This document shows, piece by piece, positions 2,034-41,370 of a stretch of 41,626 nucleotides of DNA. The translations under genes and the position numbers were made by a program. The notes under the pieces were generated by a model. That model searched no databases and had not been told where the DNA came from. It was given only the letters and a program-made list of their open reading frames with translations. Position 1 is the stretch's first letter; each line of letters opens with the position of its first letter. Source of the DNA: Irineochytrium annulatum (lineage: Eukaryota > Chytridiomycota > Chytridiomycetes > Chytridiales > Chytridiaceae). Location of the stretch: contig JADGJL010000112.1 of NCBI GenBank assembly GCA_027600665.1, positions 1 through 41,626 on the forward strand, given 5' to 3'.

Positions 2034-3427
2034 ATGCAGGTCGCGCCGGGCATCGAGAAGATCAGGTTCGTTATCCTGACCGCCTTCTTGCGGTCGCGCA
2101 CTGTGTGTTGATCAACATTCATCGTACCAGCTTCCGCAAATGGACCGTCGTCAAGCTCTCGTCCAACTTCGACGAGGCCACGAGGCTCGACACCGCGACC
2201 GTGGACTCGTTGATTAAGAAAATGAAGCCTTCCGGTATTGCAGTGTTTTCTTCCATCGTTCCTTTTCGTGTTCTTATTCTAACTGGTGTGTGTGCGCCAA
2301 CCAGATATCATCGTCCACAACGCCTACGTCGCCATCAACGCCTCCGACATCAATTTCACGGCGGGACGATACGACCCCAAGCTCCGCCCGCCCTTCGACT
2401 GCGGGTTCGAGTCGCTCGGCACGGTCGTCGCCGTCGGCGCGTCCGTGAACGGCATCAAGCTGGGGGACAGCGTCGCGTGCATGAGCTACGGCGCGTTCAC
2501 CGAGTATCAGCTGCTGGACGCGAGGGTCGCGATCAAGGTCGCCAGCAAGAGGCCGGAGGTGTTGGCGTTGCTCGTCAGCGGGTTGACGAGCAGCTTGGCA
2601 TTGGCGCATCAGGGCGCTATGACCAAAGGGGAGACGGTATGTGAAAGAAGCTCATGCGCAAGGACAAGGCGAGCACGTACTTATGATTTACTCTCTCCAA
2701 CAAACAGGTCTTGGTCACAGCTGCCGCCGGCGGCGCGGGCCAGATCGCCGTCCAGCTCGCCAAGCTGGCCGGCAATCACGTGATCGGCACCTGCTCCTCC
2801 GCGTCCAAGGTGGCCTCCCTGAAGTCCCTCGGCTGCGACCGCGTGATCAACTACCGCGAGGAGAAGATTTCCGACGTGCTTCGCAAGGAGTACCGTAAAG
2901 GAGTCGACATCGTGTTTGAGAGCGTGGGCGGGGAGACGCTGAAGGAGTGCATGGCGAACCTGGCCGTGAAGGGACGGTTGATCGTCATTGGCGCGATCAG
3001 CAACTACGCGAATGAGAGCAGCGGGGGGCCGATAAATTCGTTCAAGGGGATTTGGCCGGATAATATCCCGACTTACGAGGTATTGTGGCTATTGCTCTCT
3101 CTGCACGCTACCCGTCATTCCCTATTCCTCACCACTGTCTTTTGTCCCCGATCTAAAACCCCTCCCCACCCCCTTCCTCACGATAAATAGCTTCTCGGGA
3201 AATCCACGACGGTTGCTGGCTTCTTCCTGAACCACTACACTAAGGAATTCCCTCAGCATCTGAACGCCATGCTCAAGCTCGTGCAGGAGGGGAAGCTCAA
3301 GGTCCTGCTGGACATGGGCGACTTCCAGGGCGTCGAGAGCATCCCGAGGGCCATCAAGCATTTGCAGACGGGCGGGAACACGGGGAAGGTCATCGTTCCG
3401 CTTGGGAGGGAGGGGGCGAGGTTGTAG
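2034..3427 (+). CDS. MDR-family NAD(P)H quinone/enone reductase, PTGR3/ZADH2-like, peroxisomal
   Basis: Five exons (2034-2065, 2131-2234, 2305-2636, 2708-3079, 3191-3427) give 358 residues, typical for the family. The N-terminal GroES-like half carries NAYVAINASDINFTAGRY, the usual substrate-side motif of quinone-oxidoreductase-type MDR enzymes. The Rossmann half has AAAGGAGQIAVQLAK, the nucleotide-binding glycine motif. No structural or catalytic zinc ligands are seen, as expected for zinc-independent members. Family members reduce alpha,beta-unsaturated ketones or quinones with NADPH. The C-terminus is Ala-Arg-Leu, a valid PTS1 variant, so import into peroxisomes is likely. That matches the animal PTGR3/ZADH2 group and the neighbouring hydratase. 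The exact substrate cannot be told from the sequence. Confidence 0.88.
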
Positions 3428-4088
3428 ATAATTTTTGGACTTCGTTGGGAGTTTAGCAGTTCAGCTGCTGGAAAGCGGGTGTCCGTTCGAGTTACTTTTT
3501 TTTTTCTTTTGTTAGTGGAAGGATTCTGTTGTTGATGGATCGAATAATCAGCATTGCAATAAAACCCTGTGACTGCTAGGCCATGGGCACGTTCTTTCAT
3601 CGAGACTGATGAGGCTTTGAGATGCCATGTAAGATAAACAACATTTAAAGGTTTGTAAAGATTTATCGTACAACACAAAACATTGAAAGAGCATGCAAGA
3701 CTTTCATCATGGCAACACGAAATGCTTTCTTTCATCCAACCGCGGGCAACAGCAACGTCGTGACTCATTCCGAGACTCCTCACCGATCGGGCAGATGTGG
3801 TTTTGTCGGTTCGAACGGTCATATTCAGATGATGTATTTATCTATACGTCGTCCCCGCAGCCAACATATCACCCTCCTTCATGGCGTCCGCGCCACTATC
3901 GATGATGCAGGGCAGGGCGGCGGCCTTCGTAAGCTCCTGCGATAGGATGTCGTGGATCGACATCTGGATCGCTCTTTGGGGACAGAGGAGGGACGTAAAG
4001 CCAGGCCGGGCAGATATCCACTTCCACAGTCTGATGGGTGGTAGATGGCAAACTGGCAGCAGTGTTGACATCACCACTCGGCCAAGAC
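3428..4088. other. Intergenic: 3' UTR of the reductase and upstream region of the TIR gene
   Basis: Besides the poly(A) signal there is no supported gene. A 79-codon minus-strand frame (4077-3838) overlaps the presumed 5' region of the TIR gene. It has no recognisable domain and is not called. An in-frame ATG at 4038 could extend the TIR protein by 17 residues. Confidence 0.5.
3558..3563 (+). terminator. Poly(A) signal AATAAA of the reductase gene
   Basis: AATAAA lies about 130 nt after the stop codon of the reductase, on the same strand, following a T-rich tract. Confidence 0.5.
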
Positions 4089-7000
4089 ATGGAAGCCCTC
4101 GCCGCGCTCCTCAACCGGCCGCGGGTGGATCCGTCGTCGCTCTGGACGACCCTCCGCGTGGTGACGTCTTCCTCCTCCTACCTCATTCCATGCGCACCCG
4201 GCCACACGATCGCCGACCTGATCGAGTGCCTCGGCAGGCTGGTCCTCGACTCGCCAACCTCGCCCCACTCGATCCCCGCCGTCGTGAGGACGGAGCAAGG
4301 CGATATCTGCGCGCCGGAGCATCTTGTCGCCAGCATCCTGACCGACGGGGCCACCGTGCTGGCGCTGACGGTCGAAGAGGAGGAAAGGAGGGTCGAGAAC
4401 GCCGCTGTCACGGCGGCCGCGCATCCGTTCTTCAACGCGACGACGGGTGCACGTGTTGTTGGGAGGGGCGGCGTCGCGGGCGGGAACGCGTTGGCGATCG
4501 AAGCGGGAACAGGGCGCGGCGCTGGCGCGATGGTCGTGAGGGAGAAGACGCCAGAGCCGGGGAAGGGAAGGGGAATCAGCCTGTTCCTGTCGTACAGCTG
4601 GGCGAACTCGGCCGAGGCCGTCGGTGAGAAGGCAGTTGGCGTCTGCGACCCGAGGAATGTGCGGAAATACCTGGGGGAACAGGGCTTCACGGACGTTTGG
4701 ATGGATGTCGAACGGTATGTACCATCGTATACACAGGTTTTTCTAGCAAATCTCCGAGGTAGCTGATTATGATATCACATGATAAACAAGGCTCAATCCA
4801 GGCGGGGATCTCTTCGAGCAGATCGCCAACGGCCTGATGGCGGCGGAGGTCTGCCTCGTATGTGTAAGCGACGAGTATGCTGCCTCTCAGAACTGCCAGC
4901 GCGAGCTCAACTTCGCTGTCAACGTTCTGGTAAGTATCTGGCCGTGCGACATACTTCCGTCGGGTACAACAAGAAAACTCACATGTATATGTATGATGTT
5001 AGAAAATCCCGTTCGTGACCTTGGTCGTCGGCCGGGGTTTCGGGTGGCAGAAGACGAAAGCGGGACTCTTGATCGGCGACCAGCTCTATGTCGAGGCGCT
5101 CGAGGCTGAGCGGCTCGAGAGCAAGCTCCACGACGTCATCGCCGCCCTCGACCGCATGATCATGACGATCGAGCCCGTGGAGGTCGCCGTCGACGCGCCC
5201 GTCGCGCTCCTGGAGAGCGCGGAGGTGCCGTCGGCGTTAGCGTTGTCAGCCACCGACGGGAGGCCCGCGGATGACATCGGTTCACAGGCTGGTGCCCCGC
5301 CGCCAGGGCAGGACGGGGTGGACGCGATGAGGCACGGCGCCGGCGCCAGCCTGAAGCTCAACGTCGGCGACGTGGTCGAGTGCGCGCGGTGGCGGATGAT
5401 GCACAATAAAGCGAAGCACGCGTTTTTCACGCTGGGCGGCCTGCATTGGGAACCCGTGACGGTGTGCGAGATCGGCCCTGTGGTCGGGGGCCCGTCCGAC
5501 GGCGGCGAGGACGAGCGCAGGACCGATGACCGGCCGCGGTGGATTCCCCGGGCCGCTGGGGTGGCGGGTCATGTTGCGGCGGCAGCGGAGTGGAAACCGT
5601 TTCAGGCGTGTCGGATGATCAAGGTCCAGTTTGGCTCGCGGGTGGTCTATACGCGCGGGAGCGTGCTCATGGACGAGGAGCGGATGGAATGGGTCGAGGA
5701 GACCATGCTTCGGATTCGCCTGGGCGCCATCAAGGATTTCCCGCGCCTGATCCCCGGCGACATGGTGGAGCTGCACCAATTCGTGCAAAGAGGTGTCGAC
5801 AGGGAGGATGGCGTGTCGGCGGCTGGGGAGGAGACGGCGAGTTTGGCGCCGAGCGGGCCGTCCGAGAGCGTGGTGGAGGATGGTTTGGCGGACGCGCTGG
5901 ATGAGGACCGGGACACGTATGATTCGTGGCCGGCCATGATTCATAGCGTCATGCCGGATGACACCTATCTCGTGCGGATGGGGTTCGGGTTCTACGTCAT
6001 GAGGGAGAGCAGAAACTTTATCGGATCGTTGAGGTTGACTCATTCGCGTATGATGAGGCCCGGCATAGACCCAAGACTGATCAGGATCATGGATCAGCTT
6101 AATGACGGGGTATGTGTTTCAACTGACTTTGTTCTAGTTTGTCGTATGACATTTCTTGAAACACTCGCTAATTTGTTGGTGATATGGCAGGAACGTTTTG
6201 TGGTGCCGACGGGAGCAATTGTCAGAGCAGAGCATTTGAAAAAATTCGCTGACACCACTGAAGCCGTTACGCTTGACAGCCTAAAAGCGCAAGCAACGGA
6301 GAGGTGGCGGGCAGCTCAGCCGAACGCCTTTGCAATTACACCTTGCACGGTTTGGATCTCGCATCCGTTGGAAAATCTATCTCCGAGAGCTGCTCATAAG
6401 CTAGACTACATAGCGTACTATTTAAGAAACGTCGGCATTAACGTCATATTGGCAAAAGAGGAAATTGCGAAAGACCCGCACGCGGACAAGCTTGTCGCCA
6501 TCTTGGGCGGAATGATGCAAGGTCAGGCTTTGAATGCCATACCTTTTACCTTAACGTTTAGTTTACCAGCTGACGTCTGCATATTCTTTCTGACGACCGA
6601 GTACTTGAATTCCCAAATGCTCCTCATTGAAACGCGGCTGGCTAGGTCGAATCTGGAGACCCCCGTCGTTTTTGCTGTCATCGATCCGATATCGGAAGGC
6701 CCTAGCGCCAACATCCTCCGCCTCCTTAAAACTCGCAACTCAGACGTCTACGACCTTTCGGTCATATCGCTGTTCAAAACCCGGTGCTTCAGCATCTCCC
6801 TCCGCGTCTCTGCAATAGCTGCCGAATATGCCCAAGCGGTCCCGCAGCCGCCAACCGAGGATGTCAACAAGGTCGTGATTGTCCCGAAGCCGACCACCGT
6901 CGAGTGCCTCGTTGGCGTGACGAAGCTTGTCCGCATCGAAGGCGATACCGCGTGCGTCCGCCTCGGCGCGCTCGTGTGGATGACGCATTCGGTCGTGTTC

Positions 7001-25578: not shown

Positions 25579-26181
25579 CGGGTTGTTGCGGCGTCGATAC
25601 GAACTACGGCCAACGGCTCCATGAGCTCGACTGGACCCTGTAACGAGAATTGTGGCGACGGATGGCGACGATTTCGATGTGCTGAAGCACCGGCTACACA
25701 ATTCTGCCATGCCTTATACTGGCTGGCGACTTCAAGTGTGTGATCCGCCTAGGCACAAGACCGAGACCCAACCGGATTTTAGGCAGCTGGATTGTCGGCA
25801 GGTTGGGAGACAAGGGTAAATAAGAATGGTATCCGCCTTGGAATGGGATGCAGCGTCAAGCTCAAGTCAAGTTTCGTTTTAAGACGATTATGCACTCCAA
25901 GGACCGATTTACTTTTTCATGCATGATTCTTCGCTTGTGCGCTGTACTTAAGGGTAGCAATAGAAACATAGAAGGCAGCGGAACCATGAGCCAGTCATGG
26001 TGCAGTTGGCGCTCCACGAGCAGCGGAAGTCATTACTGTGTCGGCAAAGGACTCAGATTTCATGCATTAGATCGTTTGTATTAAACGTAATAAATGAGCA
26101 AATAGTTATACAAGCAGACAAGCGCGAGATGCAAAGAACCTATTGAACAGATAACCTTTCCACGTGGTCGATGTGATCCCA
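25579..26181. other. Tail-to-tail intergenic region
   Basis: This lies between the SAM paralogue (plus) and the protoglobin gene (minus). No gene or RNA was recognised. The sequence is of mixed composition and becomes AT-rich near 26080-26150. Confidence 0.45.
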
Positions 26182-27093
26182 TCACCTTTTCAGCAAGTAG
26201 CCAGCGATGAACGCAACCGCGCAAACGGCGACCCCAACCCCAGCTATCACCGCGTTCGAGAGCAACCCGCGCGCGCTCGCGTGGTGAACCTTCTTGACAT
26301 TGGCCCTCGAGTCCGGCAGCTCGTTGCCATCGGTGACGTAGTACTGCGCGAAGAGGTCGTTCTGGATCCAGAGCAGCTTGTTGAACGCCAGCAGGGTGCG
26401 CTTTATCGCGTCCTTGTCGAGAGGGAGGTCGGAGACGGCGCCGATGACGACGTTCTCGACGAAGGTGAGGAGGGCGTTGATGTGGATGTACTCGACGTTG
26501 ATAGACGTCTTCTTGGTTGGGTTTTTGGTGTGGATCTAACGTAGGCGAGTTTTAGCGACGAGTTGGAAGGTGGGTTGGTGTTCGAATGAGCATTTACCAG
26601 CGCGACCCAGTCGAGGTACTTGACCGTCGCCGGTCCGTAGTCGGCGGTGACGAGCTTGCGAAGGTACTTTGAGAGCATATCCTTTCGGAACTGTATCTGC
26701 TCGCTACAAAAGAGATTTTAACGCATGCCCGCATGGTACAGCCCATAGCTAACCCAGAACGAACCTGGTCTGCTTCAACGCGGCCGCGTCCACGACCACG
26801 CTGCCGTTAAAGCCCTCCATCCGGTTGGCGAACACCTGCTTCGTGATGTCGAACGAGAAGAGCTTCGCGTAGACTGTTTGCATTGCCGACCGACTTTCAG
26901 TGACCAGCTATCCGAACAAAAAAGAACACGATAGCATACCAGCATCAACGACAACAGGGACCAGCGGCTCGATGTGCGCGGCCGAATCCCTGATGGCCTT
27001 GACGTCCTCGGGTCCAAAGTCGACGAACTTAGCGACGTAGTTGAAGCGGTACTCGAGGTCGGTGTAAAGGCGGTCGCGGTCGACGTGCTGCAT
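26182..27093 (-). CDS. Tail-anchored protoglobin / globin-sensor protein
   Basis: Four exons (27093-26940, 26873-26765, 26703-26598, 26535-26182) give 240 residues with consistent phases. The first 195 residues follow the protoglobin / globin-coupled-sensor pattern: an N-terminal helix (DRDRLYTDLEYRFNYVAKFV), FGPEDVKAIRDSAAHIEPLV, then VVVDAVYAKLFSFDITKQVF. The segment TVKYLDWVALIHTKNP has H125 at the expected proximal haem ligand position. A last long helix is FNKLLWIQNDLFAQYYV. Such domains bind haem and O2, NO or CO. A single hydrophobic helix at about 218-238 (NAVIAGVGVAVCAVAFIAGY) precedes the final Leu-Leu-Lys-Arg, giving a tail-anchored layout with the globin in the cytosol. No output domain is fused. 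Membrane-tethered gas sensing or NO detoxification is inferred. The target membrane is unknown. Confidence 0.8.
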
Positions 27094-28118
27094 GTTGGCT
27101 CGGCGTTGATTGACTTGATGGGCTGGCTATAAGGAAATCGCGTCGTTCTACTTATACTGTCGACCAGCCTGGAAACCTCCGGAATTCGGCTCGGTGGTCG
27201 GCCAGTGAACCAAGAAACGAGAAATACGAATTGAGGCTGCGCCCGACTTCTCCCGACTTCACGCGCTCCACCGCCAACCAGTGCCAGCAAGCGCCACGGG
27301 GGCAGAGGCCGCTATGAAGACTGAGGCCGTTGGGACGGGCTGGTCGCCACCATTTGATTGGGGAGAGAACTCCTCAGGCCGAGGCAGGGGCCTTTAACTT
27401 CAGCGAGGTCCTGCAACGACCTTACCCTGGGACCTGGCTGACGACGGCGGTTGAAGAATTTAAGTGTGATTCACCACCGTCACGTCAGCTCCATGCTCGC
27501 GCATTCCCCGTCAATGTAAACCCGCCCTACTTGACTAACACATCGCGGAGATAACGGACGTAGGTACTGGAGGGGACGACACGGCGGACTCAATTAGAGC
27601 TGAGGCGAGCGTGAGAAAGAGGAGTCGAAGCCGGACCCGTGTTAGCAGTCAGCCTTGTTTGTGGGAAGCGAACTGCTGTCTGCGGTCGGGTGCAAACGGT
27701 CGTTTGGAATCTTCAGTGGCGACGATGGCTTTTCGGGACCTTAAAGAAAACATGTTAGGCCCCATCCTCACTGACTTCGAGGTGCCATATACGACGGAAG
27801 TAAGCTGACGAATTTCTTAATACACTATGCTTTTTATTTTTTCAATTTTAGCTTTATATACATGTTCATTATGTTCCTGCATTTGCTTCATTACACTCAG
27901 CAGGCAAGCAGTACAAAGATGCGCCGCGGCTTTTAATTTATCCTCTTCCCTAAATGGATTTAAAGTACCAGCTCAACTTCTGATAGGAGTGTCCATGTAG
28001 ACGATGACTGCGTTACCCGAATCGAGTAGAGATATTGAGTTTCGAAAATAAGGCAGATGGAAGAATGAGTTTGACGACGTCGCCCATGAGGCTAAGTAGT
28101 ACGGACTGGTCATCGCAG
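27094..28118. other. Intergenic kilobase with no supported gene
   Basis: This is the promoter side of the protoglobin gene and the 3' side of the TIR-ankyrin gene. A short plus-strand frame ending near 27808 includes MAFRDLKENMLGPILTDFEV followed by GAAGTAAGC, which could be a first coding exon with a donor. No continuation exon was found downstream, where the sequence is AT-rich. No RNA gene was recognised. Confidence 0.4.
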
Positions 28119-31100
28119 TTAACATGCGAGGCCGTTTAACCACGCCTTGGTGGCCTTCCCGGTGCTACACTGGTCATTGATCAAATCCACCGGTAGCTTC
28201 CCATCCTTATCCCTCGCCCCGACATCCACCTTCTTCTCCACCAGGAGCTTGACAAGCTCGACGTTGCCGGTGACGCACGCGGCATGAAGCGCCGTCCTCC
28301 CGCGATTCCCCTTGACGTTCAGGTCGGCACCGCCCGCTATTAGCGCCCGCATAACCTTGATAGCCCCGTCGTGATCCGCGAGCCCCGCTGCATGCAGTAC
28401 GGCCGTGTCGCCATCGTGGTTCCGCAGGGCGGCGTCGGCCCCGGCCTCCAGCAACGCTGAGACGGCGCCGGCGTGGGCGCAGAAGACGGCCCGGCAAAGC
28501 GCCGTGTTGCCGTTGGCGTCGACCGAGTCGACGTGGTAGCCTGCAGCCAGGAGGCTCGAGATCATTGGGAGGTTGCCGGACCTGGAGGCGGCGTGCAAGG
28601 GGTTCAGGATCGGCCGGCGGGCGCACGCCGGGTCGCTCGGACGGGGGATCATGGAGGAGGCATCGGATAGTGGGATGCCAAAGTGGTCGGCGAGCCAACG
28701 GGCCGACCGGTCGCTGCCTCTCGCGCGAGCGTAGAGCACTAGGGCGCCGCGAGCCTCGTCGTTGGCGAGGTGGATGTCGTGTTGTTGTGATCGGGGTCGG
28801 AGGGCGATCGCTTCCAAGAGGAGCTTGACCGCGTCGACGCTGTCGGCGTTCAAGGCCGCCATAAAAGGGTCGACGTTATAGCAGTCGGGAAGCAACGGGT
28901 CCGCGCCGTTGGCAAGCAGGAGCTTAACCGTGTCGATGTGACCGTACCATGCGGCAACCCGGAGGGCCGTCATTTTCCCTTGCGTGACGGCGTCGATTGA
29001 AAAGGATGGCGATGGCTTAAGAAGATCGTACACCTTTGCGGCAAGCATCGAATCGCTCTGCCCGGAGGCCACGTGCAGAAGATTCCAATTGCGCCGCGTC
29101 AAGATATCGATCTTGGCCTTGGTGCGCAATAACTCAAAAACCTCCACGTTCGACGTTTGCACCGAGTGGAATATAGCCGTCATGCCCGCGTTGTCGGCAA
29201 CATCGATGGTACCAGGGGTATGCTCCAGAATCTTCTCCACCATCGTCCTCGAGCATATCAACGACGCACAGCAAGAGATTAGTGGAGTGGCGCCATCCGT
29301 GGTTGTATGCTTCAGCGAGGCCTTGCTCCCCAGCAGTAGGCCGAACATCTTGTCGTCTCCCTTCTGGCACGCTAGAATTATGGGCGTGATCCCGTCATCG
29401 TCGGAGGTGTTGACGTCGGCCCCGCGCCTCAGCAGCTCAGCCATGACTCGATGACCGTCCTGTTTGGCGGCGATGAGGAGCGGCGTTTCATGGCGGAGGT
29501 CCACAGCGTCCAAGTCTGGTTTTGCATCCAACAACATCGACGCAACGTCGCTAGACTTGAGGTCTGATCAAAGCATGCAATTAGAGAACCAGGTGAAGTT
29601 TCCACAAATCAAGACAACGTGCGTGCTTACTAGCTGCAAGGTGCAACGGCGTCTGCTTGTTAAGGTTTCGCGCCTTCACATCGGCGCCCTCAGCGAGGAG
29701 GTATTTCACTATGTCCTTCTTCTCCAACTCGACCGCTTCAAAGAGCGGCGTATTCCCCTTCCCATCCAGCGCCATAATTAGCGCGGGGCACGCCAGAACG
29801 ACCTCCTGGACAATCCTTAGGGTGGAGCGCTGGACGGCGATGTGCAGGACGGACCGGTTGTCACCCGACTTCATTGTCAACACCGGCTCGCTTTGGAGCA
29901 GACGCTTGACGGCCTCGAGATTGTTCGAGGAGACGGCGTCAAAGATGTCCTTTATCGTGTTGCTAGGAGCCGTCGCGATCTGCGCCGCGCGCCGCCGGCT
30001 GTCGAGTTCCGCCTTAACGGTCTTGATGATGTTGCCGTATAGTTCATGGAGATTGTCGGTAAACCTTGCATCAATATAACTTTGGAGTGAACTTAGAAAA
30101 AGCAACAAAGCACGCAAAACTGCTTACAGGTCCTCCGCAACCTCCATGCCCAGCCATGTTTGTTCCCACGGCCGGGTCGGTTTTCTATACATAATCTCTT
30201 GTCAACCTCAACAAAAATACACTCGCTGTACCTGTTTGCAAACATGCCCCCAGTGCGGTCGAACTTTGCGGCGATGACCTCCCGCTGCTCATCGGTATAC
30301 CCGACTGCAAGCATTTATCAAAATTGGAGATGCCAAAACAGAAGTAGAACTCGCACCGATGACGGGTACGATCTTCAACCCCATCTTCTTTGCAAACTGG
30401 AACTCCTTTCTACAATTCGCGCTCGCGGCGTACTCATCGCTGATGTGCGCCACGACGACGCCGGCCTCGTCCCGGATCGCGTCCACCAGACTGTCGATCA
30501 GCGGGTGGCCGAACCCAAGCTGATCAACGTCCAGCCATGGCGACATCTGCTCCTCGCGAAGCCGGTACGCCAGGGCTCGTGGGTCGTGCCTTTACATAAG
30601 TCAAAAGGTCAAGTTTTTGTGGAAAGTGAAGAAACACTCACTTTCCGGCAGCCGCCGCGGCCCACGGAGCAGCGACTTTCGCCGACAGCTGCTTTTCCAT
30701 CTCGGACCTGAATGATGTAAGCAATCTGCGGGCTGCCGCACAGCGTTGCGCAAAGCACTCACCGCGAGTTTAGCCAGCAGTAACTAATGAAGACCTGCGA
30801 AGAACATGAGTTAACATCACCCAAAAATTGACGGCTCACACCTTATCATGACCCTGCATCTCCTTCTGAAGTCCAGGTGTGTATGCGCTAGCCGAGGACG
30901 GCGACGGCGACAGATGACGCGCCAGGGGGTAGTCAGTCGAGATCATTTCCTCCGGCGGCTGTCTAATTGGTAGTTGTGACCTCTGTGACCTCGAGATGGC
31001 GTCCACCCCGCTCACGACGGCGGGATCTCGCAAGCCAGCCCTCATCTCCTCCGCCAAAGCCGCGACCCTGTCCGCGAGCGCGCCCAGCATTTTCTCCTCC

Positions 31101-31339
31101 AGTTGGTCGAACCGTCGCTCGAGCCACTCCATCACGGCCTTGTCGTTCACGTCGGGGCCCCTCTGCATCTGGATGCGCTCCTGGAACGCCAGCACGGCCT
31201 CCAGCGACCGCTGCTGGTGGAGCAGCATCTCCTTCACGAGTCTTTCCTGGGCCTCCCCGCGGCCCTGTTCGATGTCGAGGACCTTCTGGACGATGGCGGC
31301 TGCTGGGTCGACTGGAGTGACTCGCCTGCGGAATATCAT
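28119..31339 (-). CDS. Coiled-coil - TIR - ankyrin-repeat protein
   Basis: Eight exons (31339-30842, 30794-30763, 30707-30642, 30589-30357, 30304-30232, 30184-30128, 30079-29631, 29563-28119) give 950 residues, all in phase. Residues 1-130 are a charged coiled-coil segment (MEWLERRFDQLEEKMLGALA region). The TIR domain (about 167-285) has VFISYCWLNSR, WLDVDQLGFG and SDEYAASANCRKEF. E261 aligns with the catalytic glutamate of NADase TIR domains. About 12-15 ankyrin repeats fill residues 361-945 (NTPLFEAVELEKKDIVKYLL, GRTALHAACVTGNVELVKLL and others). The TIR block resembles TIR1 of the 4-8 kb gene, including the shared SDEYAAS-x-NC motif. The layout suggests a sensor or scaffold (ankyrins) with a TIR effector and an oligomerising N-terminus. 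NADase activity is inferred, not shown. ATG 31339 was chosen, but the frame is open upstream. Confidence 0.85.
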
Positions 31340-31410
31340 TCTTTCAAGCCTTTGAGCGCGTTCTGAAGCAATGGAAAGACATCGCAAACGCCTCGAACAC
31401 CGCCACTGCC
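31340..31410. promoter_or_regulatory. Very short divergent promoter of TIR-ankyrin and F-box-like genes
   Basis: Only 71 bp separate the two proposed start codons. Either both use a compact bidirectional promoter, or one transcript starts inside the other gene. No motif was identified. Confidence 0.35.
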
Positions 31411-32898
31411 ATGCTCGACTCCGACGCCCTCCGCTGCATTCTCTCCCACCTCGACACCACCACCCCCGTCGGGCGCACCGCCCTCCTAGCCTGCATTCTC
31501 TCTTCCTCTCATCTCTTCTCCATCGCCGCACCCCAACTCTGGTCCCGGCCCGGCCTCACCCTCGACCTCGACGGGAGCGTCCACCGACACCCGGAGCACG
31601 GGAGAACCTTTGACCCCGGAGCCGCTTTCGCGTCCGTGAACGTTGAGCCGACCTCCATCAAGATCGCCGCAGGGGTGTTGGCCGGAGAGGCAGTGGACTG
31701 CAGGTCGACGGTGGGGCGGTGGCACATGTACCTGCGGTGCGTGCGGCGTATAAGGATAAAGCATCGGCAGGATTTATCGGACGCCGCGTCGCTGGTGGGG
31801 CGTCTGGGACCGTTGGAAAGCGTGATGATCGACGGGAGCGACCTAAAGTTCGTCGATGAGGCGGATCTGGAGGCCGGCCTCGGCTGGCTCCTGGACCTGT
31901 TGAAGCAAACCTCGGCCAAGCCCGCGGTCGTCCCCGAGCTCCACATCCATGAATCATGGTTCCTCCTCAGCTACTTTATTGACACGCGGGCCATTGAGCG
32001 GCTCAGAATCGACGGCTCGCGCGCCTCAATGTCGGAGATCTTATCCAAATGCCCGAACCTGCAATCGTTGACAATCGCCCCCAACGCCAAGGCGTTGTCA
32101 GATGCCGAGCTGGCGCTCATCGCCAAACACCCAACCATGAAGACATTCAGATGGGACGCGGAAGAAGCGACGAACGTGGATGCGTGCCCTTCCTTCCTCA
32201 CGGCTCTGAAATGCCGCGCCCGGAACGGTCGCAACGAAGCCTTGATGAAGATGATGGACATCGCATGTGCAAACATGCGGGAGCTCGATGTCACCGTGAA
32301 CACCATCACGGAGCCCCTGACGACCCGCCTCGTCGCGCTGCAGGCGTTGCGGACGCTGCATTTCAGGGTGGAGTTCGCGAGAGCAAACTGGGATTGGCTG
32401 ATGGCCGCGCTGCCAAAGCTTCCATTACTCGAGAATCTGGGGCTCTACCTAATCGCCCACGGTCTGACGGGCCGCCGCTGCGATCTGACGTTTGACGACC
32501 GCGCGTTCTCACGTCCCTTGCGTCTGAAGTCCCTCCGAACGTCCGAAATCGACGTCACGCTCTCAACTCTTTGGTCCACCCTTGCACACCTCGACGTCCG
32601 CCACGGCACGCTGACGATTGATTCCTCATCGCCCGCGTTCACGCGGCCGGGAACATTGACGCTCGAGCGTCTCTGGCTCCAATGCACGTGGGTGAAAGCG
32701 CTGGACGGGACGGCGTACCACGAGGAGTTCGCGAAAATGATCGAGGATGAGGGCGTGATGCCGTGGCTTTGTGACGTGTATCTGATGGCATTTTGGCAGA
32801 GGTGGGTGCAGGGCGGGAGGAAGGATGTGAGGACGCTGGAGGTTTGGAGGAAGGGGGTGGAGGGGAGGAGGTTGGTGTTGAAGTTTGAGGCGATGTAA
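31411..32898 (+). CDS. F-box-like / leucine-rich-repeat protein
   Basis: A single exon encodes 495 residues. The N-terminus (DALRCILSHLDTTTPVGRTA, then LACILSSSHLFSIAAPQLWS) reads as a diverged F-box, the Skp1-binding module of SCF ubiquitin ligases. The rest shows irregular LRR-like segments (CPNLQSLTIAPNAKALSDAE, LRTLHFRVEF, LPLLENLGLYLI) of the type fungal F-box proteins use for substrate binding. Chytrid genomes carry many single-exon genes of this type. The family level is moderately sure; the substrate is unknown. It is head-to-head with the TIR-ankyrin gene. The start is the first ATG before the F-box and the stop is TAA at 32896. Confidence 0.7.
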   Translation: MLDSDALRCILSHLDTTTPVGRTALLACILSSSHLFSIAAPQLWSRPGLTLDLDGSVHRHPEHGRTFDPGAAFASVNVEPTSIKIAAGVLAGEAVDCRSTVGRWHMYLRCVRRIRIKHRQDLSDAASLVGRLGPLESVMIDGSDLKFVDEADLEAGLGWLLDLLKQTSAKPAVVPELHIHESWFLLSYFIDTRAIERLRIDGSRASMSEILSKCPNLQSLTIAPNAKALSDAELALIAKHPTMKTFRWDAEEATNVDACPSFLTALKCRARNGRNEALMKMMDIACANMRELDVTVNTITEPLTTRLVALQALRTLHFRVEFARANWDWLMAALPKLPLLENLGLYLIAHGLTGRRCDLTFDDRAFSRPLRLKSLRTSEIDVTLSTLWSTLAHLDVRHGTLTIDSSSPAFTRPGTLTLERLWLQCTWVKALDGTAYHEEFAKMIEDEGVMPWLCDVYLMAFWQRWVQGGRKDVRTLEVWRKGVEGRRLVLKFEAM

Positions 32899-33340
32899 AC
32901 GCATAGAAATCACAGCCAGGAGTTAATAATAATGGATAATTTTACTGTATGGCGAAATATGTAATAATGCATGGGATTATTATGATGTACGGCAAAAATT
33001 GCAAGCAAAAAACTTTTTTAAAGCCTTCCACCAAGATTCTCTCTACAACACGGGCGGACCCATCACACCCCAACCACCAGCAATCACACGTGAACACGGA
33101 ATATCTTCCAGATGGCTCGGCCTTGACAACGGGGCGCGAACGACAAGGGAACGTCTTAAAAGGACGCTTCCGGCACCAGGCCTCTTGGCAATGAGCGTCA
33201 TGACGCGGAGATTCGTCGCCGTCCCGAGAAATGAGGGGGTGGGGGTTGGGGAAGGGAGATGGAAGGATTTAATGCAACGCCGATGCCACTACCTTGAGTG
33301 GAATCGCCGGGGCGCGTCTGCGGCCTCCACCTGAACGGAT
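32899..33340. other. AT-rich intergenic region
   Basis: 3' flank of the F-box-like gene; strongly AT-rich at 32920-33030. Two short overlapping frames at 32949-33334 have no domain. No gene is seen. Confidence 0.45.
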
Positions 33341-33544
33341 AAGGGCGTGACCGAATTGGGTTGGTCGAACATCGCGGTGGACCGACACGCCACCATGAAG
33401 GACGCTGTGAGACCTTCCAACGCTCTGACGGATCTCGTCGTGACCTCCACCGTGTCCGCGTCCGATAATAATGCCGCCCTGCTTTTCTACGAAACGATAT
33501 CGTCCCTCGACCCCGCGCGATGGTCCGGACACGACTTCGCGTGA
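33341..33544 (+). pseudogene. Relic of a SAM-domain receptor paralogue
   Basis: An open frame from GVTELGWSN to a TGA at 33542 contains SSLDPARWSGHDFA. This matches SSLDPADWSAHDVA at the start of the SAM domain in the 24.6-25.6 kb gene. The upstream words also match (GVTELG in both). The frame stops just where the SAM helices should follow, so only about 65 codons remain. Several short indel-like differences separate the two. It is read as a dispersed, truncated duplicate about 8 kb from the cluster. Confidence 0.55.
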
Positions 33545-33767
33545 TACGGGACTGACCACACTGTCAGTGCGTCAAATTCCCTTCACATCCATTTTTAATA
33601 TTACTGCTGCCAACTGTGGAAGTGGAACTTCCGCGGAATACGCGTCCCGGTTATAAATTTTATTGGCAAAACGGCGTGTCCATATCAATTTTGGTGGCAA
33701 GACGAAAGAAACAACAAAAATGAGGGAAAAGCTCACGTTATAGACATATCACATGGGGGGGTATCCT

Positions 33768-35235
33768 CTATTCGCACACCATGAACGGCTCTGCCGCCAT
33801 CACATTCGGTTGCGCATCATTCGGTTGCGCATCAAACCGCTCCTCCAGCTGCCTCCTCGCGGCCCTCTTCTGCATCCTCCTCCCGAACTTCCTGAGCCTC
33901 ACCACCTTCGCCACAATCAACCCCAAAGATATCACGACGCAGTACGCAATGTACGTCCCCACGCTCGCGTACGTCCCGATCCGATCCCACCCGACGGTTG
34001 CCGCAAGCAGCTGCCACCCGCCATTCACGCCCCCTTCCTCCGGGTTGCAGCAGTCGAGGTACCACCACGTGGCGTTGACGTCGTACACGCCGTCGGAGCC
34101 CTCCGACAGGTCCACGCCGGACGACAAGGTGGTTCTAAAGTGGTGGCGCTGAAAGTGAACGACGGAGCGGGAGAGGAGGCCGAGGGACATGACGAGGAGG
34201 ATCACGGTGGCGGTGAAGAAGAAGGTGCGGATGTGAAGGGAGTTGCCAGCCTTGTAGATGGCGTAGCCGATCCCCGCGCCACTTGCGAGGCCGACGATGG
34301 CCGCGAGGGGGATCGTGGCTGGGTCGCTAGAGATGCCGATCTGATAAAAGGCAAAAGCGGGGGTGGTCAGTTACGTCCGCATATTGAAAGGAAATAAAAA
34401 CGGTGACGGAACGCTCACCCCGCCGATGAAGACAAAACACTCGAGGCCTTCGCGCAGGACGGTGACGAATGGTAAGATAAACATGGAGTAGCCGGAGGTC
34501 CCGGACTTGATGATAGGCTCGTCGATGGCCTTCTCCTTCTCCTGCTTGTCGACCGTCCCGTCCGCAAGGGTGGCGACGCTAGAGTCCTTCGCGTCCACCG
34601 CAACTTCCTTCTTCCCCGCAAACTTCGTCTTCAGCCACTCAAACGCTCTCGCGGACATGCTCTGGTTGGATGACGTAGAGCTGACGGAGGCGGCGTCAAC
34701 GTCGTCACCGGGGGCAGCCGTCACGTCAAAGTGCTTCCGCAACCTCTTGTGCCACTTCTTAGTCAGCTCTTCGGCCTGGAGGAACGTGAATGCGAGGAAC
34801 GTGAGAAGAACGGCGGCCAGAAGACCCTCGGTGCCTTCCCAAAGGTCTTCCGCGGTTTCCCTGTTACATGAAACTCTGTCAGCATCATTGGCCTTTTTTC
34901 GACGAATGTCATTCTGCACAGATACGCACCACAGGTTCGTGGCATACTTGAACCATACGACGAGGAATGCAGTCCCGACGACCACGCTGATGGCGAGGGC
35001 CAATCCGGTGCCGAGCCATACAAAGCCGGTCATTCGCTTCCTTATGGATGTACCGGGCTCGAACGATTGATGGATGAAGGACAGGAGGACGGCCAGGATG
35101 ATGGTGGCCTCCACGCTCTTTTTCCGCGAACGAAGCTCCATCAGCGGGCGCGGCGCGAGAAGCAGCGAGGTAACGATCCCCAGCACTCACCTCGCGTAAG
35201 GTCACGAAGAAGATTGGCACCGAGAAGCCGAACAT
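33768..35235 (-). CDS. High-affinity iron permease, FTR1 family
   Basis: Four exons (35235-35191, 35117-34930, 34860-34419, 34340-33768) give 415 residues, close to yeast Ftr1. FTR1 transports Fe3+ across the plasma membrane after a partner ferroxidase oxidises Fe2+. Both iron-binding REXXE motifs are present: RESVE at 14-18, formed across the first splice junction, and REGLE at 214-218. Around seven hydrophobic helices are visible. A long Asp/Ser/Lys-rich cytosolic loop (about 130-200) separates the third and fourth helices, and a basic tail (RKFGRRMQKRAARRQ) follows the last. The start ATG 35235 leaves a very short N-terminus, as in other FTR1 proteins; a further upstream exon ending at a TAG acceptor is possible. 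The gene is head-to-head with the peroxidase / multicopper-oxidase gene at 35476, the arrangement expected for partners. Confidence 0.92.
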
Positions 35236-35475
35236 GATGAGGAGAGTGATCTATGAGGCTGCAGGGCCGTCGGGGAAAGAGGGAAAGATGTGGTGCTCGG
35301 GGAATGTGGGAGCCAACCGCTGTTCCGTTCACCCTTGAGATGCTTCTGACAATTGCTTGTGACAATTTACCATCAAATATGAAACCCGATGAAACACTAG
35401 TCGAACACGCTGCTGATCGCGTTGCAGAAGTTCAGAAGTTCGAAGCTCGAAAGGGAGCAGCTCGTTTATTCCGCA
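35236..35475. promoter_or_regulatory. Shared divergent promoter of FTR1 and the peroxidase-oxidase gene
   Basis: 240 bp lie between the two start codons. No clear GATA-type iron-regulator site was recognised by eye. Co-regulation is inferred from the arrangement, which recalls linked ferroxidase / permease pairs in other fungi. Confidence 0.5.
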
Positions 35476-38400
35476 ATGGTCGTTCAGGCGTCAGTCTTAC
35501 GGGCGTCCGTCGCCTGCTGCCTGCTCGCCCTCGTGCATAAGGCCTCATGCGCTCCCCCCAACTGGCCTTCACCGGTCTGGGACGAGATGGAGGAGATCGT
35601 CTACCAGATGGATGGCTACCGCTCGCTCGGCTTTGCTCAGCGCTTGAACCTGGTCCCATGCAATGCCCAGGTGAGATCGTCGTGCCGTGTGAGCGCGTGA
35701 AGGCCGCAAAAAATCCTTATTTATCGTGTGTGATTTATAGAATGCCGTCAACCTGCGTATCGGCTTTCATGACATGACCGGCCACGATGCCGCAAACAAA
35801 CTGTGGGGTATCGACTCGTCGCTTCGATGGGAGCTGGATGTGGAGGCAAACAGCGGGACCTTCGGGCCCGTCTTCGAATCCTTGACAGACTTTGTCAATG
35901 CCCGCGTGTCGCACTCCGACCTCTTGGCTGCAGGTCTCGGCGTGGCAGTCGCAGCCTGCTCGGGTCCCTCCCTGCCCCTCCGTATCGGCCGCGTCGACGC
36001 CACCGGCCCGTCCCCGAACATGGTCCCAAACACTTTCGATTCCTTCGAAGATATCCAGAGGAATTTCTCTCACTTTGGCTTCTCGCCCTCCGAGATGATC
36101 TCGGTCATCGCGTGCGGCCACACCCTCGGCGGCGTCGAGTCGGACGAGAACCCGGACATCGTCACGGACTCTGATAAAGATTTCTTCGACACCACGAACC
36201 TCATCTACGACCACACTGTCGTCAGCGAGTACATCTCGGGACACACCGGGAATCCCCTGGTGTCGGGCCCGCCTAGGACCGACTCGGACATGCGCATCTT
36301 CAGCTCGGATGGCAATGCGACCATCGCGAAAATGAACTCGGAGCCCGCTTACTTCAGCACGTGCACGACCGTGCTGCAGAAGATGGTCAACAGCGTCCCC
36401 GCGGAGTCGGTGTTGTCGAACTTGATGGAGCCGTACGACGTCAGGCCCGTGGGCATCGGCTTCGACGTTGACGATGAGGGGAAGCTTTTGTGGAACGGTG
36501 ACGTGAGGGTTAGGACGACCGTTGTACCTTCGGACGCCATAAAGTCCGTCACGCTGACCGCGAGGGATGAGAGCAAGAAAGTTGCCGTGTACGAATTGGA
36601 TGCTGTTGAGGGGGGGAATACGACGGGAGGGTTCCCGCAGGAAAGCTTTCAGGTTTGTGGATCTGACTTCATGTTTCCATTCTGCGCCTCAGTGTCCGTC
36701 TTAACCGTATATCCGTCATATAGTTTTACTCCATGCCTAGGGCGGTAAACAGCACCTCGGTCGCCTCATTCTCCGTCGCAATTACCTACAACAACGGCAA
36801 AAGCACGAACTTTACCAGCAATGGAACATTTTTCCCCGTCCAAAGCAAGGCGTTCTTCTCCGCGTCTCGCAGCTGCGTGGGTTTGAGCGATGCTCTTAAC
36901 ATGACGGCCACCATTGTTGCGGCGGTTAGTATCACTATTTCAAACTTTGCTCTCCCCTCATTAAGACTAAGTTGTGTTCACATCTCAGGTTCGAAAAGAG
37001 TTTGCCGACGCGCCGGTCTACTTAAACCTCACAACCGGCGTGCGCGACGATGACGGCGCCATCCCAGGTGTCGAGCTTGTCCAAGACTCCATCAAAATGA
37101 TCCAGATGGGAGCAATACAACCAGCAGCAGCAAGCGGCGACGACAAGGCGGCCGCGATCCCCGGCAACGCGACGTCCCCCTCCTCCTACGTCTTCTTCGT
37201 TGCCAACATCTCCTTGACGGCTTGGGCGAAATACCAGTCTACTTTCGACATCACCGTCCCCAAACACAACATCACGGCCCCTTTCAACAAGCTCGTTGAC
37301 ATCCTGGATCAGCCTTGTGCCCCCGCCACTGTCGCGCTTGATTGGAGGATCACCTATGTGAACGCGGCACCCGCAGGCGTGAAGGCGCGGCGGGTCATTG
37401 GCGTCAATGGGCTTTGGCCAGTCGCGCCTGTTTATGCGAATGTGGGGGACACGATCGCGATCAAGATGGTATGCTTGTGCGTCGACGTTTTTTTGTAATC
37501 AGGACGGCTCTGATGGTAATCGCGTTTTTTCTTAGACGAACCAGCTGGATGTCCCGACGGCTCTTCGGCTGCATGGCATCACAGATAAAGGATCGGCGCA
37601 GTACGATGGAACTCCCTTTGTCTCGCAATGGTATGTTTCGTTTACTTTGTAGTCGTGTTGCAGGCTCCTAACCTTCACTTCAAAGCGCCGTGCCGCCGGG
37701 TGCCGATATGGTGTACACCGTGACCCTCAACCAGACCGGCACTTTTTTTATCAACGGCAACCATCAGGTCTGAGCTTGACTATTTTGCCGGCCGACTCCC
37801 TGTAAAAAAAAAATCGCATAGCTTAACTCGCATATTTCATGGTAGGGACAAAGCGTCGACGGACTTCGTGTGCCGCTTATCGTCCGAGGCGTGCAGGACG
37901 CGAAGTACAGTGCCGAGCATGTCGTCCGCCTCTCCGACTGGTACGACGACGACTATAGCACCATGTTTTCAAATGTCCTGAGCACCAAGAACCCCGTTGG
38001 CACACTGCCGATGCCTGGTACGTTGTTGCGATGTACTTTTGGCTTCATTGTTTGAGGCTATTGTTGTTCTTACTCCTAAACCGCCAGCCGCCATTTTGGT
38101 CAATGAGGGTGATGGTGCCCCGCTTGCGTTTGACCCGTATCGGGTGCACTCGGTTCGATTGATTTCGATGGCTTCGCAGGTTACACTGCAGGTAGCGATT
38201 CAGAATCACAACATGACTATTGTCGAGGTCGATGGGGTATGTGATTCACGTAACAAGGGATTTTTTTTGACCATATTCGGATAGGTCCCGGTTCAACCCT
38301 ATGAAGTTAGCGGGCTGACCATCGCGCCGGCGCAGCGGTATGGGCTCCTGGTGTACGGGGTCAAGCAGACGAGCGACTCGGAGAACAACTATTTGTTACA

Positions 38401-39528
38401 AGTCACGCAGAATGGCTTTGACGCAACCGAGGGCCAGATCGGATTGAGTAAGTGCGACTCTTTTTGTTTTACCTCTTTTTCTTGTTTGTCTAACCACTTT
38501 ATGATAGATGCGACCCTGGTACTCTCCTATGACCCGCAAAACCCCCTCGTCAACTCGTCAACCGTTCTGGATGCCTCGGAGAGCACGGGCGACGGCGCCA
38601 CCTATGACGATTTCTCCGCGTACCAGGACCTCGTGCCATTGGACGACATCCCAGCTCTCGTCCCCACACAGCGGATCACCCTCCGGGCCACTTCGCAAAT
38701 GATGGCGGATGGAACGAGTCGCGGAAGCTTCAACGGCGTAGCGTATTTAACCCCCGCCGTGCCGTCGCTCATGACGGCGATGTCAATGGAGACGGACGCC
38801 CTGAAGAAGAACCCGACCGTTTACGGATCCAGCACTAACCCCTTCATCCTCGACGACGGTGGCGTCACCGAGCTTACGGTTCTGAACGATAACGTCAACG
38901 ACCGCTCTTGTGAGTTCTTGTTCCCCGCTTCCTCCATCACATTTTTAAGTGAGGTTTTACTTCGTAGTCCACCTGCATGGCCACCAGTTCCAGATTATCG
39001 CCATGGGGAAGCTGCCCTACGCCGCGAGCAAGTTACAGGAGCCCGACGAGAGCCCCATGCGGCGGGACGTCATCCTTATTCCGGCGTACAGCTACGCCGT
39101 CTTGCGGTTTGCGAACGATAATCCGGGGGCGTGGAAGTTTGAAAGCAGCATGCCGTTCCTTCGTATGTGTACCATTCCCTACATCTAAGAAAGTATCCTC
39201 TAATTTCATCCTGGTAGGTGACTCGGGCCTGGCCGCTACCTTCATCGAGGCGCCGACGCTGCTCCCGTCCACCATTGATTACACCTTCGCGGCCACCTGC
39301 AAGGCGCAGAACATTAGCGTGACAGGAAACGCGGCCGGAAAGGCTGGCGCCGACATGAGTGGGTACGTCACAGGCCCGGGGCCGGCGACCATGGGGATCA
39401 CGGGGGCGTTTTGGGGCACGATATTCGGATGCGGGGCGTCGGTGGTGGTGTTGTTTTCTTCGGTTTACTTTTTCCATGTCAAGGATGAGGTGTTGTATAA
39501 ACGATTAGGAGGCGAGGTGATTCAGTAA
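35476..39528 (+). CDS. Haem peroxidase fused to a degenerate Fet3-like multicopper oxidase, membrane-anchored
   Basis: Twelve exons (35476-35670, 35741-36652, 36724-36924, 36989-37468, 37536-37630, 37686-37767, 37846-38017, 38088-38236, 38285-38447, 38508-38909, 38968-39162, 39218-39528) give 1118 residues, all in phase. A signal peptide (about 1-26) leads to a class II-like haem peroxidase (about 40-330) with distal R71/H75 in [12 protein letters not shown] and proximal H192 in [12 protein letters not shown] beta-rich tail typical of fungal secreted peroxidases follows (to about 500). Then comes a three-cupredoxin oxidase fold (about 515-1025) with Fet3-like landmarks ([35 protein letters not shown]). 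One membrane helix lies at about 1075-1101. Exon 36989-37468 encodes both the peroxidase tail and the oxidase start, so the fusion is not a join of two genes. Most copper ligands are lost (see findings). Probable plasma-membrane partner of FTR1. Confidence 0.85.
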
Positions 39529-39996
39529 AAAGGCCCTCATAGTCATGGCAAGCGTCATTGCTACTACTTGTATCTCAATAGTATTAAATTTTTACCTCGT
39601 TGTTGCGTTTTCTATGACAGCTTACTGGATCACTTTTATTATCGACAACCTCTTTAGAACGACAACGGTCGAAGTTCCCTCGAGCGCATTGACGGGTCAC
39701 ATTGCGTTGACTGCAAGCGATTTTCTCACCTTGGCAAGGGTGTGCGTCCGTAGACGAGGTAGGAGATCGAATATGTCTTGACTCACTTCCTGGCCGCAGG
39801 CCGGGGCGGAGGTGCTGCGACAGAGCACAAACTGAGGTAAGTCGGCGTCAGGCTGGAGGCCTCACAAACATTCAAGCACAGCCGCATACAAACAGGAAAA
39901 TTTGGAGGCAGCCCTTGCGAGCCGTTTGTAGATGCGGCGAGCCTAGGGTTAAGGTTAAGGTTACAAGGGTCGTCAAAACAGCCCCTGGTCACCCAA

Positions 39997-41355: not shown

Positions 41356-41370
41356 GGGGTTAGGGTTAGG
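41356..41370 (+). repeat. Short telomere-like TTAGGG run
   Basis: GGGGTTAGGGTTAGG, about two units of the TTAGGG telomere repeat, lies between the USP-like frame and the endonuclease-like frame. Confidence 0.5.

Follow-up and report, generated by a model that had tools for sequence, protein, structure and literature searches.

A haem peroxidase fused to a Fet3-like protein with most copper ligands replaced lies beside the iron permease gene FTR1 in Irineochytrium annulatum

Background

High-affinity reductive iron uptake in fungi relies on Fet3, a copper enzyme, and hence on copper, and multicopper ferroxidases of the Fet3 type bind four coppers through ten histidines and one cysteine. The yeast Fet3 protein oxidises Fe(II) and hands the Fe(III) to the permease Ftr1, and each of the two proteins needs the other for correct trafficking (PMC11817551). 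In this study, we analysed a stretch of 41,626 nucleotides from the chytrid Irineochytrium annulatum (GenBank assembly GCA_027600665.1, contig JADGJL010000112.1, positions 1 to 41,626, hereafter the window), in which a single gene joins a secreted-type haem peroxidase to a Fet3-like oxidase half next to the iron permease gene FTR1, and in which most of the copper-binding residues of that oxidase half are replaced.

The closest described system is that of yeast Fet3p and Ftr1p, with which the fusion shares three cupredoxin domains, a C-terminal hydrophobic helix and an intact, divergently oriented FTR1 neighbour, yeast Fet3p being also the best PDB match of the oxidase half (1ZPU, E 2e-64). Unlike Fet3p, however, the fusion lacks 8 of the 11 copper ligands, along with two of the three acidic iron-site residues, no signal peptide of its own is seen on the oxidase part, and this part is preceded by some 550 residues that include a haem peroxidase. 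A multicopper-oxidase fold, or similarity to one, without metal sites is likewise known from insect MCORP and from SufI/FtsP of E. coli, SufI not being known to bind copper; these proteins belong to other lineages than the fusion, and we know of no peroxidase fusion or linkage to an iron permease for either of them. In MCORP many ligands are missing and oxidase activity was not detected, while the protein is essential (PMC4203857), and the structure of SufI is multicopper-oxidase-like (PMC2661564).

For the peroxidase half, the nearest likeness is to the Hybrid B peroxidases (HyBpox), with which the fusion shares a signal peptide, the motifs RxxFHD and ACGHT, and most of a C-terminal motif. 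In contrast to the fusion, described HyBpox end in sugar-binding-type or WSC domains, and cupredoxins are not mentioned in the accessible portions of the source papers (PMC8945051, PMC5571214, PMC4232752). Class II manganese and versatile peroxidases differ from the fusion in having three acidic residues of a manganese site at the haem edge, a set that is not conserved in the fusion. Dps, for its part, is neither a haem enzyme nor a membrane protein. Its type of oxidation is a precedent for H2O2 as an oxidant of Fe(II) in biology (PMC6675082), a likeness of chemistry only. A literature search by title and abstract, covering few subscription papers, returned no description of such a peroxidase-multicopper oxidase fusion. 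Relatives of multicopper oxidases without copper sites have been described, as have fusions of Hybrid B peroxidases; their union beside FTR1 appears to be new within the literature searched.

Results

The fusion gene (35476-39528, forward strand) consists of 12 exons separated by 11 GT-AG introns of 48-78 bases, with splice sites set by eye, and encodes one open protein of 1118 amino acids. Its order is signal peptide, haem peroxidase, Hybrid B-like motif region, three Fet3-like cupredoxin domains and C-terminal hydrophobic helix. Pfam searches identified the peroxidase family PF00141 at residues 69-199 (E 3.9e-14), Cu-oxidase_3 (PF07732) at 557-670 (E 1.5e-23), Cu-oxidase (PF00394) at 679-825 (E 8.6e-27) and Cu-oxidase_2 (PF07731) at 898-1028 (E 2.8e-23), the last three in Fet3-type order. 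The stretch between the peroxidase and cupredoxin domains gave no Pfam match with E up to 10, and an NCBIfam search returned five families, every one a multicopper oxidase and all far under cut-off. The top two hydropathy windows of the protein, residues 2-20 and 1083-1101 (the latter 1.86), fit a signal peptide and, at the C-terminus, a membrane helix, respectively. An earlier note on this DNA, made from the letters alone, had proposed a single peroxidase-oxidase fusion with secreted and membrane-anchored ends at these coordinates, and both proposals agree with this open model and with a diverged second copy of the same structure, which was the one further copy found when the genome (26.9 Mb in 1082 contigs) was searched and which lies on contig C951 (L009).

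The same note had singled out exon 36989-37468 as bridging the peroxidase tail and the oxidase start, and this junction exon was indeed open over its full length in both fusion copies. Searching the organism's own genome with it gave four matches, namely the window, C951 and two unfused Fet3-like genes on contigs C642 and C499, the starts of which match exon residues 111-159 and 117-157, while for exon residues 1-110 the window and C951 were the sole matches. Within residues 437-560 of the fusion the best hydropathy window was 0.84, with no strongly hydrophobic stretch fit for a signal peptide, and Met 473 and Met 476 were the only methionines there ahead of Met 596. With neither a hydrophobic stretch nor a suitable methionine before the first cupredoxin, the oxidase part shows no sign of a second signal peptide in front of it.

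To compare metal ligands, both fusion copies were aligned to yeast Fet3p (1ZPU chain) and to the unfused C642 and C499 genes, using the copper-ligand positions of Fet3p, each of which lands on a histidine or cysteine of Fet3p in the alignment. The alignment showed that 8 of the 11 ligands are replaced in the fusion, leaving H83, H416 and H418. All type 1 ligands are changed (H413R, C484S, H489L), and so are the type 2 ligand H81 (H81R) and the type 3 ligands H126N, H128N, H483E and H485S. These replacements, as well as those in the acidic iron site discussed below, are identical in both copies, whereas the unfused C642 and C499 genes retain 11 of 11 copper ligands together with E185, D283 and D409. 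Because eight ligands, including all those of type 1, are replaced, the oxidase half appears by its sequence to be catalytically dead and would not be able to act as a multicopper ferroxidase. The earlier note overlooked the loss of most copper-binding residues; its description of a Fet3-like protein thus stands for kinship and for the three domains, but not for a working oxidase or ferroxidase.

Among other oxidase genes of this genome, a pattern scan found HxHG, HPxHLHGH and HCHxxxH in all three examined (two at C196 and one at C538). The second HxH signature matched the pattern in one C196 gene and was recognised by eye in a neighbouring-frame match for the other, and the scan gave no match to it in the C538 gene. 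The two multicopper-oxidase genes at C196 (L028) stand in tandem, with the signatures HxHG, HPxHLHGH and HCHIEWH. Some members of the fungal ferroxidase clade have been reported to lack one copper signature by motif scan (PMC7594830), so partial losses of such signatures have precedent.

The second copy allowed the history of the locus to be followed. BLASTN returned L009 2037-7921 against window 33706-39638 as one match with 89.1% identity, a duplicated unit of about 5.9 kb that contains hardly more than FTR1 and the fusion; outside this unit the L009 sequence (9959 bases in all) gave no BLASTN match to the window, the flanks being unrelated. The sole flank searched in the genome, window 26000-33500, gave seven other matches of 68-77% identity, the longest of 2045 bases at 69%. 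As the unit was copied at 89% identity without a comparable copy of this flank, it is a duplicated unit, and the possibility that C951 is a plain allele of the window was rejected. All 11 introns of both fusion copies lie at the same positions with GT-AG ends, and the reading frame is kept; identity between the copies is 56-95% in introns and 87-98% in exons. The two proteins differ at 55 of 1118 aligned residues, and coding sequence has a single indel, an in-frame one of six bases in exon 12.

The ratio of nonsynonymous to synonymous substitution rates (dN/dS, by the NG86 method) between the two fusion copies was 0.106 overall, 0.027 for peroxidase residues 26-290 and 0.087 for residues 628-1060 of the copper-less half (dS 0.42), and the two FTR1 copies differ at 27 of 410 residues (dN 0.034, dS 0.27, same method). 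Purifying selection is observed on the peroxidase part, the copper-less half and FTR1. The low dN/dS of the oxidase half means that this copper-less half is kept by selection, and the value of 0.087 led us to reject a decaying pseudogene. On the other hand, the 5' halves of the two fusion copies are unusually alike, with a dS of 0.05 at residues 291-540 and 0.42 at 628-1060 (intron 1 82%, introns 2-4 92-95%, introns 5-11 56-84% identical), which probably reflects a recent gene-conversion patch and weakens the selection test there.

In the peroxidase half, R71, H75 and H192 were all found as previously placed, and fungal class II peroxidases rank first among its PDB matches (best E 1.8e-10). 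The distal Hybrid B motif R-x-x-F-H-D is present (LRIGFHD at 70-76), the proximal motif [LM]-V-A-C-G-H-[TV] is represented by VIACGHT (5 of 7 positions, with ACGHT exact), and the Hybrid B C-terminal motif [LIV]SFxGx[IV]R[VI]RTT is matched at 8 of 10 fixed positions at 314-325, a score that none of 2000 shuffles of the fusion protein reached (best 7). RxxFHD, [LM]VACGH[TV] and the C-terminal motif are described as marks of Hybrid B peroxidases, the last reported among peroxidases only in that group, and a chytrid clade is placed at the base of the group (PMC8945051). The RxxFHD, ACGHT and C-terminal motifs of the fusion would fit this group.

A genome search with exon 2 returned five matches, which are the window, C951 and three at 29-33% identity. 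Since the remaining matches are so distant, no close unfused relative was found, other peroxidase-family matches in the genome not having been scanned for Hybrid B motifs. Relatives of exon 2 were confirmed for none of 71 pattern matches in genome_contigs and none of 14 in viral_contigs, both collections without fungi. AlphaFold gave exon 2 alone a mean predicted local distance difference test score (pLDDT) of 34.5, and this model was not used. Elsewhere, two strong peroxidase-family matches adjoin on one strand at G000:C968:9094-10935, each spanning most of the model, an arrangement like that of a catalase-peroxidase.

FTR1 (33768-35235, reverse strand), which the earlier note had placed beside the fusion, is an intact permease gene divergent to it, with a PF03239 match (E 2.3e-44) and two RExxE motifs, RESVE and REGLE. 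A loop of the protein carries DLSE, and yeast Ftr1 is reported to carry DASE in the corresponding loop (PMC11817551; loops matched by eye). No GATA-type site (HGATAR) occurs in the 240-base spacer between the two genes. Contig C642 (L027) carries the ordinary form of this gene pair, FTR1 and FET3 diverging in the same order, with FTR1 at 1532-2751 on the reverse strand and the oxidase at 3267-5317 on the forward strand. Two of the three introns of this oxidase gene agree with fusion introns in both residue and phase (by eye), one pairing KM|TN with VM|RN, the other lying within the F of SFHLHGH and PFHLHGH. Given this shared order and these shared introns, the fusion is most likely derived from a duplicated FTR1/FET3 pair with a peroxidase added in front.

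Discussion

We propose, at a probability of roughly 0.45, that the fusion is a copper-free partner of FTR1, in which a Fet3-derived scaffold would hold a haem peroxidase, and this peroxidase would use H2O2 to oxidise Fe(II). In its origin, a duplicated Fet3 gene linked to FTR1 would have gained a secreted haem peroxidase of Hybrid B-like type at its N-terminal end, and it no longer shows a start or signal peptide of its own. The Fet3-derived half would have shed its copper sites and retained the three-cupredoxin fold and membrane helix, most likely because docking with FTR1, or escort of it, persists, and the peroxidase may thus be held above the permease at the cell surface. There it might act on Fe(II) from putative ferric reductases of the cell surface, and a step based on haem and peroxide would take the place of the copper step in reductive iron uptake. 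With the copper chemistry gone, the fold, anchor and permease kept and a peroxidase added, the scaffold account is the simplest that uses all parts; peroxide-driven iron oxidation, if any, could possibly be performed only by the haem half. It is a more tentative suggestion that the locus forms a copper-free, H2O2-driven ferroxidase-permease, whose grafted peroxidase would supply Fe(III) to FTR1 under shortage of copper or O2, or in surroundings that provide peroxide.

Several points weigh against this proposal. All evidence comes from a single genome, and the PDB alignments of the peroxidase do not cover the proximal aspartate, the residues checked being R71, H75 and H192. The manganese-site residues of the versatile peroxidase VPL2, E36, E40 and D175, align to A64, V68 and E198 of the fusion (alignment judged by eye), thus no known metal-oxidising site is visible at the haem edge. 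The acidic iron site is two-thirds lost (E185L and D409N, with D283 retained), and, given the role described for these three residues of Fet3 (PMC11817551), a yeast-like hand-off of iron from Fet3 to Ftr1 would need other residues. For residues 291-540 the dN/dS was 0.487, a weak estimate from very few changes with a dS of only 0.05. Moreover, two full-ligand Fet3-like genes remain, one of them beside its own FTR1, so copper-dependent uptake has not been replaced genome-wide. Finally, FTR1 of Rhizophagus has been reported to function in yeast without a ferroxidase (PMC11836134), which means that linkage to FTR1 is no proof of ferroxidase function and that there may be less need for any oxidase.

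The main rival draws on the same observations and fits almost as well, and we regard it as possible yet doubtful. Here the copper-less Fet3 half would escort or hold FTR1, while the peroxidase clears H2O2 near the permease and so prevents Fenton chemistry, FTR1 operating without a ferroxidase or on Fe(III) produced elsewhere. This too uses every part, and it suits both the haem edge without a metal site and the lost acidic iron-site residues; FTR1 uptake without a ferroxidase has the precedent just mentioned (PMC11836134), and Hybrid B peroxidases have been discussed as a defence against reactive oxygen species (PMC8945051, PMC5571214). It leaves unexplained, however, why the peroxidase shares a chain with an oxidase remnant instead of being a separate protein, and yeast Ftr1 has been reported to be unable to import exogenous Fe(III) (PMC11817551). 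A membrane-anchored cell-wall or surface peroxidase, with the cupredoxins as stalk and anchor only and FTR1 as a functionally unconnected leftover of the ancestral pair, seems unlikely. While Hybrid B peroxidases are secreted and carry varied non-catalytic C-terminal domains (PMC5571214), and the loss of copper and iron sites agrees with a mere stalk, FTR1 is intact and was duplicated along with the fusion, and the low dN/dS across the cupredoxin part would exceed what a stalk is expected to need.

Two further explanations carry very little weight with us. An artefact, whether neighbouring genes merged in the reading or a chimeric assembly, could be suspected because the splice sites were placed by eye and the gene model is known from genomic sequence alone. 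The junction exon is nevertheless open in both copies, no signal-like stretch or suitable start precedes the oxidase part, and the same 11 introns occur on different contigs whose exons are not identical but show 45 to 270 substitution-level differences. A diverged copy with the same introns and frame makes a chimera or two split genes unlikely, and two separate genes were rejected on this ground, on the open junction exon and on the missing second start and signal. The assembly error that the earlier note had considered would likewise need to have occurred twice with an identical junction, C951 having the same junction and introns. Least probable of all is a protein with both halves active, a haem peroxidase plus a working copper ferroxidase; Pfam finds three cupredoxin domains and Fet3p is the best PDB match, but the replacement of eight copper ligands in both copies, type 1 included, contradicts it.

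A copper-less, FTR1-linked relative of Fet3 with a haem peroxidase offers a natural test of cofactor and oxidant exchange, and also of whether the Fet3 fold serves mainly as a scaffold for FTR1. It provides a clear case of a predicted dead enzyme domain maintained by selection in a new fusion, for which the intact relatives encoded elsewhere in this genome serve as controls. If the scaffold account is true, haem and peroxide may have replaced a copper-requiring step of iron uptake.

Other features of the window

The coordinates of the fusion gene, its neighbour and the duplicated unit are given in Table 1.

Table 1. Positions in the window of the fusion gene exons, the adjoining permease gene and the duplicated unit
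Feature	Position	Strand	Remark
Exon 1: signal peptide and start of peroxidase domain (residues 1-65)	35476..35670	+	
Exon 2: peroxidase core with R71, H75, H192; Hybrid B-like motif at 314-325	35741..36652	+	
Exon 3: region C-terminal to peroxidase core	36724..36924	+	without Pfam match
Exon 4, junction: 110 residues unique to the two fusion copies, then start of cupredoxin 1	36989..37468	+	
Exon 5: part of cupredoxin 1, with RLHG in place of the first copper motif (HxHG)	37536..37630	+	
Exon 6: part of cupredoxin 1, with NGN in place of the second copper motif (HxH)	37686..37767	+	
Exon 7: last part of cupredoxin 1, first part of cupredoxin 2	37846..38017	+	
Exon 8: cupredoxin 2	38088..38236	+	
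Exon 9: cupredoxin 2	38285..38447	+	
Exon 10: last part of cupredoxin 2 through first part of cupredoxin 3; H413 position (exon end) is R	38508..38909	+	
Exon 11: cupredoxin 3, HLHGH kept, HCHIEWH changed to ESSMPFL up to exon end	38968..39162	+	
Exon 12: last part of cupredoxin 3, then hydrophobic helix (1083-1101) and a short tail with the stop codon	39218..39528	+	
Spacer of 240 bases between start codons of FTR1 and fusion, presumed shared promoter	35236..35475		
FTR1 iron permease, 415 aa, four exons (35235-35191, 35117-34930, 34860-34419, 34340-33768)	33768..35235	-	RESVE, REGLE motifs
Duplicated unit (FTR1 and fusion)	33706..39638		copy on C951 at 89% identity

Just outside the duplicated unit are two short telomere-like stretches, AGGGTTAAGGTTAAGGTTA (39945-39963) and GGGGTTAGGGTTAGG (41356-41370). 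The genome also matches a radial spoke protein family (best E 9.5e-51), which agrees with a flagellated chytrid-type fungus. Ankyrin repeats (PF12796, E 5e-53) occur in an open frame at 28122-29567 on the reverse strand of the window.

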